This document shows positions 50,673 to 53,542 of a DNA stretch of 64,000 nucleotides, one piece after another. The stretch is from Flavobacterium sp. MC2016-06 (GTDB taxonomy: Bacteria; Bacteroidota; Bacteroidia; Flavobacteriales; Flavobacteriaceae), in assembly GCF_009711165.2 (NCBI RefSeq), contig NZ_WMID02000006.1, positions 1 to 64,000 on the forward strand. The letters run 5' to 3'. Every line of letters begins with the position of its first letter. Positions within the stretch are counted from its first letter, which is position 1. The position numbers were made by a program, and so were the translations under genes. Below the pieces are notes generated by a model, which saw nothing but the letters and a program-made list of their open reading frames with translations, did not search any database and had not been told where the DNA came from.

Positions 50673-51440
50673 ATGAGCGAATTAGTTTCTATTATAATTC
50701 CAACCTATAATACTGAAAAGTTTATTAGAGCAACTTTGCAATCAGTCATAAATCAAAGTTACCAAAACTGGGAAATGATTTTAGTTGATGATGCATCTAC
50801 AGATCAAACGGTTTTTATTATTGAAGAATTTGCTCAAAATGATAATAGAATCAAACTTTTTAAATTAGCTAAAAATTCCGGAAATGGTTTTGCCAGAAAT
50901 GTAGCTTTAGAAAAAGCAACAGGAAAATACATTGCGTATCTCGATGCCGATGATGTATGGTTTCCTGAAAAGCTGGAAAAGCAAATTCAGTTTTTAAAAA
51001 TAAATAATTTGCCTTTTACTTTTAGTTTTTACGATTGTATAGACGAAGAAGGAAACGATTTAAACAGAAGGGTAGAAGCACCTTTAAACTTAACCTACAA
51101 ACAATTATTTTACTGCAATTATGTTGGTAATTTAACCGCGATTTATGATGCTGATTATTTTGGAAAAATCGCATTACCTGCTTCACAAAAAAGACAAGAT
51201 TGGCGTTTGTGGCTTACAATTTTAAAACAAATTAAAACCACGAAACCTGTACCAGAACCTTTGGCTTTTTATAGAATTAGAAAAGATTCTATTTCGTCAT
51301 CAAAATTCAAATTGATTAAACACAATTTTGGAGTTTACCGAGAATTTCACGGTTATAATTTTGTGTTTTCTGTTTTGTTGATGATGAGGTTTTTATTTAC
51401 GCAATTGGTTGTGAAACCTCGATATATAAATAATAAATAA
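50673..51440 (+). CDS. Glycosyltransferase family 2
   Basis: This 255-residue GT2 (GT-A fold) protein begins VSIIIPTYNTEKFIRATLQS and then ILVDDASTDQT (about 36-46). AYLDADDVWFPEKLEKQI (about 90-107) carries the metal-binding DxD. Two hydrophobic residues groups at the C-terminus (FVFSVLLMMRFLF) may anchor it to the membrane. It belongs to the polysaccharide locus. A hairpin array follows directly after the stop codon. Confidence 0.92.
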   Translation: MSELVSIIIPTYNTEKFIRATLQSVINQSYQNWEMILVDDASTDQTVFIIEEFAQNDNRIKLFKLAKNSGNGFARNVALEKATGKYIAYLDADDVWFPEKLEKQIQFLKINNLPFTFSFYDCIDEEGNDLNRRVEAPLNLTYKQLFYCNYVGNLTAIYDADYFGKIALPASQKRQDWRLWLTILKQIKTTKPVPEPLAFYRIRKDSISSSKFKLIKHNFGVYREFHGYNFVFSVLLMMRFLFTQLVVKPRYINNK

Positions 51441-51445
51441 CATCT

Positions 51446-51660
51446 AAAATTGGAGATCACAAATTGTGATCTCCAATTTTCTAATTCAAACTTGAGGTCA
51501 CAAATTGTGACTTCAAGTTTGATAAATTCTTTAAGGTCGCAATTTGCGACCTTAAAGAAAATCAATTTCAATCTCATTTTTCATTTCAATCATGATGTCG
51601 CAATTTGAGACATCATGATTGAAAATTCTTTAAGGTCACAATTTGTGACCTTAAAGAATT
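51446..51660. repeat. Array of five hairpins with a GTCRCAAWTTGYGAC-type core
   Basis: Five near-perfect palindromes with a 1-nt centre lie at 51446-51480, 51486-51522, 51527-51559, 51585-51623 and 51624-51660. Arm lengths are 17, 18, 16, 19 and 18 bp, with one mismatch each in the second and fourth. Cores are GATCACAAATTGTGATC, GGTCACAAATTGTGACT, GGTCGCAATTTGCGACC, TGTCGCAATTTGAGACA and GGTCACAATTTGTGACC. Outer arm sequences differ but each is self-complementary. A sixth copy lies inside the next gene (51961-51993). Confidence 0.95.
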
Positions 51661-52190
51661 TATTTTTTGTAACCGATTTTTATTCTTTCACTTTCGTTTT
51701 CTTTTTTCTCCGTTAATTCATCTAAGTAACTAAAAACCAACTCTATATTTTTATCATGATTCTCTAATTTTTTCTGTATTTGAAGAATATCAACTTTCAT
51801 TTCTGTAGTATCCAAAAGCATTTCTCTCACTTTTGTGAAAATACGCATTATTTGAATATTGGTCTGAATTGCTTTGTCACTTTTTAGAACGCTTGATAAC
51901 ATAAGAACGCCGTGTTCTGTAAAGGCAAAGGGCAAATATTTTTGATATTTACCTCTTCCTTTCTCTAAGGTCACAAATTGTGACCTTAGAGAATCAGATT
52001 CCGTTTTAGTAAGTTCAAACATGAAATCTTCAGGAAATCTTGATAAATTTCTTTTAACTGCTTGTTTTAATACTTTAGTTTCAACTTCATAAAGCATCGC
52101 TAAATCACTATCGAGCATTACTTTTTGACCACGGATAAAATATATTTTATTAGAAATTGTTTCTTCTGAAAGTAAAGATTGATCGTCCAT
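51660..52190 (-). CDS. ORF6N-domain protein
   Basis: This 176-residue protein has an N-terminal ORF6N domain (about residues 12-110). It contains IRGQKVMLDSDLAMLYEVET (family start), KQAVKRNLSRFPEDFMFELT, then SLRSQFVTLEKG and YLPFAFTEHGVLMLSSVL. A coiled C-terminal part runs from about 120. ORF6N domains are KilA-N-related DNA-binding modules found in phage and mobile DNA. The 33-bp palindrome 51961-51993 encodes SLRSQFVTLE. The stop codon overlaps the last intergenic hairpin. No mobile-element genes are nearby. Confidence 0.9.
   Translation of the reverse strand: MDDQSLLSEETISNKIYFIRGQKVMLDSDLAMLYEVETKVLKQAVKRNLSRFPEDFMFELTKTESDSLRSQFVTLEKGRGKYQKYLPFAFTEHGVLMLSSVLKSDKAIQTNIQIMRIFTKVREMLLDTTEMKVDILQIQKKLENHDKNIELVFSYLDELTEKKENESERIKIGYKK
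51961..51993. repeat. Palindrome inside the ORF6N coding region
   Basis: TTCTCTAAGGTCACAA and TTGTGACCTTAGAGAA are perfect 16-bp arms with one A between them. The core GGTCACAAATTGTGACC is identical to the consensus of the intergenic hairpins. On the minus strand it encodes SLRSQFVTLE. Confidence 0.95.
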
Positions 52191-52231
52191 AAGTTTTTAA
52201 TTGGAAAACAAATGTAAGATTTTATTTATAT

Positions 52232-53542
52232 TTATAAATACGATTTAAATTGTTTTAGTTTACCACGATTGGTTCTTTCTAAAACTGTTTTTCTAATAAA
52301 AGTGAAGTTTAAATTTGGCTCTAAATACAAAGAAATGGCTTCTTCTATTTTCTGAATTTTATTCGCATCTAATTCTTTTTCAGAAACATATTCAATTTCA
52401 AAAGTGTCTAATTGCGTTTGTTTGATGATAAATTCTTTTACATTTCCATCGTCTTCAATAATGCTTTTGGTAACATAATAAAACGTTAGTCCGGGCGATT
52501 TTTTTCCGCTTGGTAAAAGCGCCACATCATTTGTTCTGCCAATTAGTTTTTTTAGAATTGGTTTTTGATGCGTACTTTTTTCATCAAGAATTCCGATGTC
52601 GCCAATGTCATATCTGATAAATGGAGTTGCTTTGTTGAATAAAGAAGTAATTACAATTCGGCCTTCTTTTCCGTAAGGCAAAACTTGATCGTTCTCATCT
52701 AAAATCTCTACAAAAAGTGTTTCTGAATTTACCTGCCATTCGCCTTTTGGATTTTCAAAAGCAATTAAATCCAATTCTGAAGCACCATATTCATTGATTA
52801 TTGGAATCCCGAATTGTTTTTCCAGGAATTTTTTATCCGATTCAAAAAGCATTTCCGAAGTAACAAAACAAGCTTTTAAGGTTGGACAAATTTCTTTTAA
52901 AATGATATTTTTTTGTTCTAAAAACTTCGCAAACAAAACAATAGAACTTGTATAACCGTTGAGGTAATCGAATTTTTTAGTTTTGAACTTTTTCAGAAAT
53001 TTTTCTAAAACTTCATCAGATAAATCGAAAACAGGAAATCGAAAACGACTTCCCAAAAAATCTTTAAAACGTTCTTTTTGATAGCCAATAAAATCCATCG
53101 GAATACCATAAAAACGAGCTTGATAGGAATGATTAAAATCGATCCCAAACCAGCCAAAACGCATAATATTCGAAGCCCAAGTCAACGCATGAGCATATTT
53201 ATCTTTGGCAAAAACAAAAGGTGTTCCGCTAGATCCAGAGGTTTTGTTGAGGTAGACATTTTTTAAAGTATATCCTTTTGAAAGTCTTTCTAATAATGGT
53301 TTTTGTAAATTTTGTTTGTTCAAAATCGGTAAATCTTCCCATTTCTGAACAATTTTACTTCCAACCAATTCGTTATAAAAAGGATTGTTCTGCAAATGAA
53401 AGCCAACAATTTCGTCTTTTTGTTTTTGAAGAAATTTTGCATATTCTTCTTCAGAAAGACGTGTAATTTGTTCCAAATCGGATTTTGCTTTCTTTATAGG
53501 AAAACCATTTAATTGAAGCGAAATGTCGAAAAGAGAAATCAT
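52232..53542 (-). CDS. CapK/PaaK-like adenylate-forming enzyme
   Basis: This 436-residue protein of the phenylacetate-CoA ligase/CapK family has the ATP-binding P-loop LNKTSGSSGTPFVFAKDK (about 101-118). Later come INEYGASELDLIAFEN and FIRYDIGDIGILDE (about 320-333), both family signatures. CapK-type genes occur in capsule loci, which fits this location, and its substrate is unknown. The start MISLFDIS is the only good ATG. Confidence 0.85.
   Translation of the reverse strand: MISLFDISLQLNGFPIKKAKSDLEQITRLSEEEYAKFLQKQKDEIVGFHLQNNPFYNELVGSKIVQKWEDLPILNKQNLQKPLLERLSKGYTLKNVYLNKTSGSSGTPFVFAKDKYAHALTWASNIMRFGWFGIDFNHSYQARFYGIPMDFIGYQKERFKDFLGSRFRFPVFDLSDEVLEKFLKKFKTKKFDYLNGYTSSIVLFAKFLEQKNIILKEICPTLKACFVTSEMLFESDKKFLEKQFGIPIINEYGASELDLIAFENPKGEWQVNSETLFVEILDENDQVLPYGKEGRIVITSLFNKATPFIRYDIGDIGILDEKSTHQKPILKKLIGRTNDVALLPSGKKSPGLTFYYVTKSIIEDDGNVKEFIIKQTQLDTFEIEYVSEKELDANKIQKIEEAISLYLEPNLNFTFIRKTVLERTNRGKLKQFKSYL

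Follow-up and report, generated by a model that had tools for sequence, protein, structure and literature searches.

ORF6N genes carry a long palindrome within the codons of their own putative DNA-binding domain, and the bases of this palindrome vary in step with residues of a candidate recognition helix in the protein. The comparisons described here make it probable that ORF6N is a sequence-specific DNA-binding domain whose cognate site, a palindrome of ~31 bp, lies in the codons of that same domain and may serve self-control. A preliminary description of this DNA had proposed that the ORF6N protein recognises the palindrome of its own codons, and sequence comparison lends this proposal strong support from base pairing, a helix-to-base code, prediction in further genes and a second reading frame.

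Palindromes in and beside ORF6N genes

The window, by which we mean the whole 64,000-nucleotide stretch that was analysed (G000, contig C6, positions 1-64000), comes from a genome searched over 6,168,808 bases in 121 contigs. Its ORF6N gene, P0001, scores 123.2 bits on the Pfam profile, well above the curated cut-off of 27.8. Six long palindromes lie in or beside this gene, as had been described, and their arm lengths, complementarity and excess of a 17-bp core over shuffles all bear this out (Table 1). The core, GGTCACAAATTGTGACC, gives 10 strand matches at five places when up to three mismatches are allowed, compared to 0.12 expected in shuffles; the palindrome at 51584-51624 is farther from this pattern than the other five. 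The five intergenic palindromes have 1-nt centres and arms that are 94-100% complementary, and they occupy the interval between the ORF6N stop codon and that of the convergent glycosyltransferase gene. As single strands, all six fold into hairpins (z -5.4 to -10.9), and their outer arms vary from hairpin to hairpin yet remain complementary, again in agreement with the first account. The in-gene copy is an own-type site, with inner code CA, G at position 7 and outer type TCTAA.

Table 1. Features of the ORF6N locus (positions in the window)
Feature	Positions	Strand	Details
Convergent glycosyltransferase	50673-51440	plus	Pfam PF00535
Inserted unit, ORF6N gene and hairpins	51441-52231		Missing as a block in relatives without the gene
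Intergenic palindrome 1, TTGGA type	51446-51480		GATCACAA; arms 17 nt; 5 nt off the glycosyltransferase stop codon
Intergenic palindrome 2, CTTGA type, CA core	51486-51522		Arms 18 nt
Intergenic palindrome 3, TTTAA type, CG core	51527-51559		Arms 16 nt
Intergenic palindrome 4, CATGA type, imperfect core	51584-51624		Arms 20 nt
Intergenic palindrome 5, TTTAA type, CA core	51623-51661		Arms 19 nt; overlaps the ORF6N stop codon by 2 nt
ORF6N gene P0001, 176 aa	51660-52190	minus	PF10543, E 5.4e-36; PADLOC PDC-S05, E 1.3e-71
Codons of residues 78-85	51936-51959	minus	Residues 78, 83 and 85 track outer positions 11 and 8 (mutual information)
In-gene palindrome, codons D66-K77	51961-51993	minus	DSLRSQFVTLEK; arms 16 nt, perfect, 33 bp, one-base centre
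Codons of K39 V40 L41 K42 Q43 A44, putative recognition helix	52059-52076	minus	Mutual information and residue/base tables
Upstream neighbour gene	52232-53542	minus	Same strand; served as independent locus phylogeny and empty-site marker

The in-phase minus-strand peptides reported earlier for the intergenic copies are also right (NWRSQFVISN, NLKSQFVTSS, SLRSQIATLK, IMMSQIATS and SLRSQIVTLK, beside SLRSQFVTLE in the gene). Once the core is shared, however, such a reading is automatic for a palindrome, and so it adds no evidence by itself. The span first assigned to the feature, 51446-51993, covered the hairpins and part of the gene but not the whole of it, which runs from 51660 to 52190.

Across 249 genomes of the genus, the expected association between the core and ORF6N was found: the core is present in 110 of the 148 genomes with an ORF6N match and in 19 of the 101 without one (Fisher p 1.7e-18), and a control pattern, the core read backwards, occurs in 14 of the 249. 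Several pattern loci (L036, L045, L052-L054, L056 and L063) fall in other ORFs or near a tRNA-like stretch. These loci, and the 19 core-bearing genomes without an ORF6N match, indicate that the short core alone is not specific. In L036 and L054 the 15-bp core directly follows a stretch that by eye resembles a tRNA 3' end, probably a chance match.

A wider collection of 239 distinct ORF6N domains drew on the genus, on the class Bacteroidia, on IMG/VR contigs and on named genomes. The titles of the last include Flavobacterium, Pedobacter, Mucilaginibacter, Omnitrophota, Patescibacteria, Chloroflexota, Nitrospirae, Planctomycetaceae, Desulfobacteraceae and Nitrosomonadales; many are MAGs, and hosts are given as deposited. 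Core codons are present in 226 of the 239 domains. A palindromic bias in their codons, which the preliminary description had put forward as a check, proved to be general: a mean of 12.9 of 14 positions is paired in the 226 core genes, compared to 6.5 after synonymous recoding with codons redrawn from each gene's own usage. All 226 genes exceed their own synonymous expectation, 210 of them at p < 0.01. Counting positions outward from the palindrome centre, the paired fraction lies between 0.89 and 1.0 for positions 1-5 and 9-13 and between 0.81 and 0.88 for positions 6-8, and has fallen to the chance level (0.27) by position 16. Elsewhere in the same domains, the best in-frame palindrome reaches 6 to 8 of 13 in 205 of the 226 and at least 10 in four.

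Compensating changes maintain the pairing and often alter amino acids: NWRSQ..TSN occurs with AATTGGAGG and NLRSQ..TSS with AACTTGAGG, and other compensated peptides are NLKSQ, NLMSQ, SLRSQ..TLK, SSRSQ..TLK, LRFQ.GTS, LRTQNAS and WKSQ.VIS. The centre variants QF/QI and QN/HF (102, 97, 11 and 7 of the 239) represent the same duplexes with the strands exchanged. Some loci hold more than one copy. A minus-strand gene in L315 contains two palindromic motifs in tandem and in frame (LRCQIVTSSLRSQIVASSW), a duplicated site within an ORF6N gene; a Parabacteroides distasonis plasmid (L319, 2992-4725) carries three tandem ORF6N genes with palindromes of 12, 12 and 10 of 13; and two ORF6N domains occur together in L167, L168, L170, L221, L233 and L256.

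Correspondence between helix residues and palindrome bases

The helix motif ET-[KR]-x-L-x-x includes residues 39, 40 and 43 of P0001. In raw counts that are uncorrected for shared ancestry, R at helix residue x accompanies G at palindrome position 4 in 82 of 83 genes, V accompanies A in 73 of 76 and Q accompanies C in 24 of 25, in both halves. Mutual information was shuffle-corrected and taken over protein columns outside the palindrome-coded stretch. At position 4, residues 43 and 40 carry 1.42 and 1.35 of 1.57 bits, with the next residue at 0.40; the same two residues rank highest at position 5. Position 7 is tracked by residue 39 (0.47 of 0.86 bits), position 8 by residue 85 (0.69 of 1.20) and position 11 by residues 78 and 83 (0.60 and 0.54 of 1.00). 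Gln-A, Arg-G and Glu-C pairs are chemically familiar. These patterns suggest that helix residues 39, 40 and 43 specify bases of the palindrome, and from them we infer the contacts themselves. Leucine at residue 43 with half-sites TG/TT or TT/TT (L360, L341 and L399) and R43 after L40 with CC (L217 and L425) appear to be further letters of the code.

Position 7 follows a rule of its own. Of 49 genes that combine R39 with a V-class helix, 47 have A there in one or both halves, compared to 2 of 147 with K39 (p 2.6e-40, uncorrected for ancestry). Where the right half has G, the synonymous third base in the left half is A in 19 of 21 genes of the first kind and in 2 of 144 of the second (p 1e-20). 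In this situation the palindrome itself would call for G on the left, and neither its upkeep nor protein packing explains the third-base preference.

With the rule fixed first, 80 further stretches were fetched. The run covered 104 domains after removal of four duplicates; 10 of these had no centre by the text pattern, and six had another residue or a gap at residue 43. In the full run, which included some genes seen before, 83 of 88 domains obeyed the inner rule in one or both halves (71 in both), compared to a mean of 32 and a maximum of 49 with shuffled labels, and the position-7 rule held in 84 of 85. Among the strictly unseen loci (L325-L404), 69 of 73 domains obeyed the inner rule, where shuffled labels gave 26 and never more than 38, and 72 of 73 obeyed the position-7 rule. 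When the same loci were recentred on the best palindrome, leaving out five domains without a 10/13 palindrome and five with another residue 43, the counts were 72 of 74 and 70 of 70. Five of 84 unseen domains had no palindrome of 10/13. L375 and L390 fail in both centre versions and L378 in the text-pattern version; for L355, L379, L329, L387 and one L319 gene, whose rows are misses or weak, the printed peptide indicates that the text pattern chose the wrong centre.

Thirteen domains lack the core codons. Seven of them keep the usual frame but with other peptides, for example GVSQNVIPP in phage contigs, and their palindromes pair at 10 to 12 of 13 positions. In the remaining six the palindrome is shifted by one base with 10 to 13 of 13 positions paired, and GTC ACA AAT TGT GAC is read as VTNCD, in place of the xRSQIVT of the main class. 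Another 48 distinct domains (46 from L405-L450, together with L062 and L253) comprised 36 with the palindrome in its usual frame, 10 with it shifted and two below 10/13. Of those 10, L062 and L253 had been seen before; L405, L406 and L408 are contigs of L187, L186 and L189; and five were new. The inner-code rule holds in nine of the 10. Because the same palindrome is kept in a second frame with an unrelated peptide, it is the DNA site, not the peptide, that is conserved. A 4.1-kb Segatella copri plasmid (L321), with a replication initiator and ORF6N as its two annotated genes, has a shifted-frame palindrome of 12/13 with an altered core.

At one locus the types reassort at random. The window's upstream neighbour gene is present at 61 loci in the genus; 50 of these belong to the distinct-domain set and were arranged on a tree built from neighbour DNA, the one tree-based analysis in this work. 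Helix residue x changes 15 times on this tree, compared to a shuffled mean of 14.8; palindrome position 4 likewise changes 15 times, and the outer type 28 times, compared to 28.1. Helix and palindrome are concordant in 49 of the 50 genes, the exception (L026) having one matching half. In most of 12 orthologous pairs, identity dips from 80-90% at about -130 to +50 nt around the palindrome, with a second dip at the hairpin region. Five of the six main outer types are found with at least two inner codes, and the core therefore changes independently of the outer arms that enclose it.

A rival reading would trace the code to covariation within the protein together with common descent, the helix packing on the A/V/G residue of the motif and template switching making the palindromes symmetric. 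The segment does travel as a block and most of the tables are uncorrected for ancestry, both of which would suit it. Synonymous codons nevertheless follow the helix, the same DNA persists under another peptide in another frame, most outer types combine with several inner codes, and helix and palindrome stay concordant through random reassortment; we regard this explanation as very improbable. Selection on an RNA or single-strand hairpin (mRNA structure, terminator or processing signal), in place of protein-DNA recognition, earns hardly more weight. Its appeal lies in the strong predicted hairpins and in the closeness of the intergenic copies to the gene, which may place them in the transcript. 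But mismatches show no wobble bias, either in genes (A-C 60, G-T 21) or between them (G-T 32, A-C 30), strand-swapped centres are used alike, a single matching half-site suffices for the position-7 rule, and folding leaves unexplained why base identity tracks helix residues.

Intergenic hairpins and the inserted unit

Intergenic palindromes were defined as those within 450 nt with at least 11 of 13 positions paired, and 20 sites that fell in tandem ORF6N ORFs were removed. By this definition there are 113, distributed over 60 of the 239 genes. Upstream of the gene there are 37, at a median of 53 nt from the ATG and in 35 cases within 120 nt; downstream there are 76, at a median of 68.5 nt from the stop codon and in 73 cases within 250 nt. 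Their outer and inner types are those also found in the genes. If they were own-type operators they would be expected to match the helix type of the resident protein; across the 113 sites, however, own-type match is at the permutation level for both outer type (0.18 compared to 0.16, p 0.31) and inner type (0.42 compared to 0.40, p 0.34), and that candidate role was rejected. Such a mismatch is not what simple autoregulation through extra operators predicts. An Rfam search returned 32 matches, all below the gathering score and mostly to miRNA families.

The gene and its hairpins form an inserted unit. Among 30 neighbour-gene loci, 15 contain an ORF6N gene by a text test and two (L280 and L299) a shortened one, and all 17 have at least one palindrome; the other 13 have neither gene nor palindromes. 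In 11 of these 13 empty loci the frame of the convergent gene reaches the stop codon of the neighbour, and in two (L294 and L306) a same-strand gene follows at once. In L280 the ORF6N gene is cut at its own palindrome, which abuts another hairpin. The shortened gene of L299 (G030) lies at the syntenic site as a 158-codon open stretch, with the FTE motif by eye changed to FIE.

ORF6N coding remnants lie beside intergenic hairpins in L203 and L266, and by eye in L077, indicating that part of the arrays derives from ORF6N genes. General tests for remnants gave a weak signal: a 15-residue profile found 1 of 113 sites; outward extension to the left scored above 6 at 4 of 113 sites in the sense frame, compared to 3 in the other five frames together (p 0.79), and to the right at none in the sense frame, compared to 2 in the others, although right-hand scores are overall higher in the sense frame (p 2e-4). 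BLAST of the loci recovered six short ORF6N fragments, one of them at a locus edge. Relic origin is thus shown for a few sites only. The intergenic copies are type-mixed sites inside the inserted unit, and at least some are relics of earlier ORF6N genes.

These results bear on the other explanation in the preliminary description, the spread of a coding segment as a REP-like element, of which only the coding origin stands, for the few hairpins with remnants. REP/RAYT and MITE elements are short intergenic hairpins in clusters, and the palindromes described here are likewise short, repeated, hairpin-forming and intergenic, in arrays of mixed types. Many dispersed copies were not found in the window's genome, however: matches to a degenerate 15-bp core, and to a 19-bp core allowing up to three mismatches, all fall at the ORF6N locus. 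Nor does invasion of the gene by such elements fit the presence of the palindrome at the same codons in nearly all ORF6N genes examined, or the finding that just one of the 19 core-bearing genomes without an ORF6N match holds more than one core. We give invasion the lowest probability of any reading considered.

The main rival to self-control supposes the same binding with a role in mobility, the palindrome being a landing or exchange site of mobile ORF6N units and the protein a targeting factor. The inserted block, the L280 gene cut at its palindrome directly before a second hairpin, the tandem genes of L319 and doubled motif of L315, the replacement of the segment around the palindrome at a fixed locus and the gene remnants that flank a few array hairpins would all be consistent with it. 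Against it, Pfam finds no recombinase domain in P0001, and no recombinase is a fixed neighbour (a phage-integrase domain occurs in 8 of 90 scanned flanking ORFs). On balance we think a mobility role unlikely, though it deserves consideration.

No common partner gene emerged from the 90 of 236 flanking ORFs scanned (among the best 25 of 146 families), and a fixed partner gene or restriction operon was rejected for that reason. In a Treponema saccharophilum plasmid (L323), ORF6N is lined up with genes for a DNA methyltransferase and a restriction specificity subunit, as though part of a restriction operon; this context was seen in one case only. In an Alistipes indistinctus plasmid (L322) it adjoins a KilA-N gene and a putative phage abortive infection gene. 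More generally, of the 228 genes with sufficient flanking sequence, 176 share their strand with the largest ORF found within 400 nt upstream (median gap 43 nt), so that many ORF6N genes may use a neighbour's promoter.

Proposed self-recognition and its relation to known systems

Taken together, the comparisons lead us to infer that ORF6N proteins bind their own gene. The protein would bind probably as a dimer, its C-terminal part being coiled-coil-like by eye. Helix residues 39-44 would read positions 4, 5 and 7 of each half-site, and residues 78-85, which follow the palindrome-coded part, would read the outer positions. Since site and reader reside in the same gene, each allele would have its own lock and key; and since the site is matched nowhere else in the window's genome, the predicted target is the gene itself and any copy of the same type. 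By occupying its own gene, the protein may limit transcription as a roadblock, and may act likewise on an arriving copy of the same type. Transcription from a neighbour's promoter would make such an internal control site useful.

The most likely consequence would be allele-specific self-control, with repression or an immunity role, a plausible but speculative proposal that falls somewhat short of likely. More tentative is a broader reading, which we consider possible though doubtful, of ORF6N genes as autocognate elements that combine helix, loop and their only strong genomic target in ~150 bp, across phyla and in two frames. Types would be swapped under rare-type advantage, newcomers of the same type silenced or excluded, and the arrays would be a worn-down record of earlier types.

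P0001 matches PDC-S05, a phage-defence candidate, over residues 1-175 of 176, and also matches PHROG profiles of phage anti-repressor families. PDC-S05 has been counted or placed in a tree (PMC12988326, PMC13356809), and an ORF6N-KilAC protein of a Fusobacterium phage has been labelled an antirepressor (PMC6591296); the available text of these papers describes no mechanism, site or gene palindrome (PMC12988326, PMC13356809, PMC6591296). A sequence search of the PDB found no credible relative of the ORF6N protein, and literature searches found no description of a palindrome in an ORF6N gene. If the proposed recognition is correct, it would give this phage-defence candidate a testable function and would constitute a compact and very unusual self-recognition device, in which a single gene couples changes in protein specificity to changes in the DNA target. 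Each gene would state its own site, providing hundreds of natural protein-site pairs and a recognition code for an almost unstudied domain. It would also be a case in which a DNA site constrains coding sequence so strongly that it influences the choice of amino acids and persists in two frames.

From our searches and to our knowledge, there is no precedent for a protein whose target is part of the sequence coding for its DNA-binding domain, occurs in two frames and follows a readable code. Unlike REP/RAYT and MITE elements, the ORF6N palindromes are not dispersed in the window's genome and are embedded at a conserved coding position.

RepC of repABC plasmids acts on a site within its own gene, and avoidance of incompatibility between relatives has been invoked there (PMC2783167). 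ORF6N would resemble RepC in having its site inside its own gene, as the sequence evidence suggests. It differs in that the palindrome lies in DNA-binding-domain codons, with a residue-to-base code and two frames, and in that no replication role is known for it.

Immunity repressors of Cluster A mycobacteriophages and their multiple stoperators diversify together into specificity groups (PMC6550527), and the diversification of ORF6N types at a fixed locus resembles this co-divergence. Many sites matching the resident repressor, as for stoperators, were not found among the intergenic ORF6N palindromes, whose types do not match that of the resident protein. Stoperators are also asymmetric and spread over the phage genome (PMC6550527), whereas ORF6N sites are palindromes that do not occur outside the inserted unit in the window's genome.
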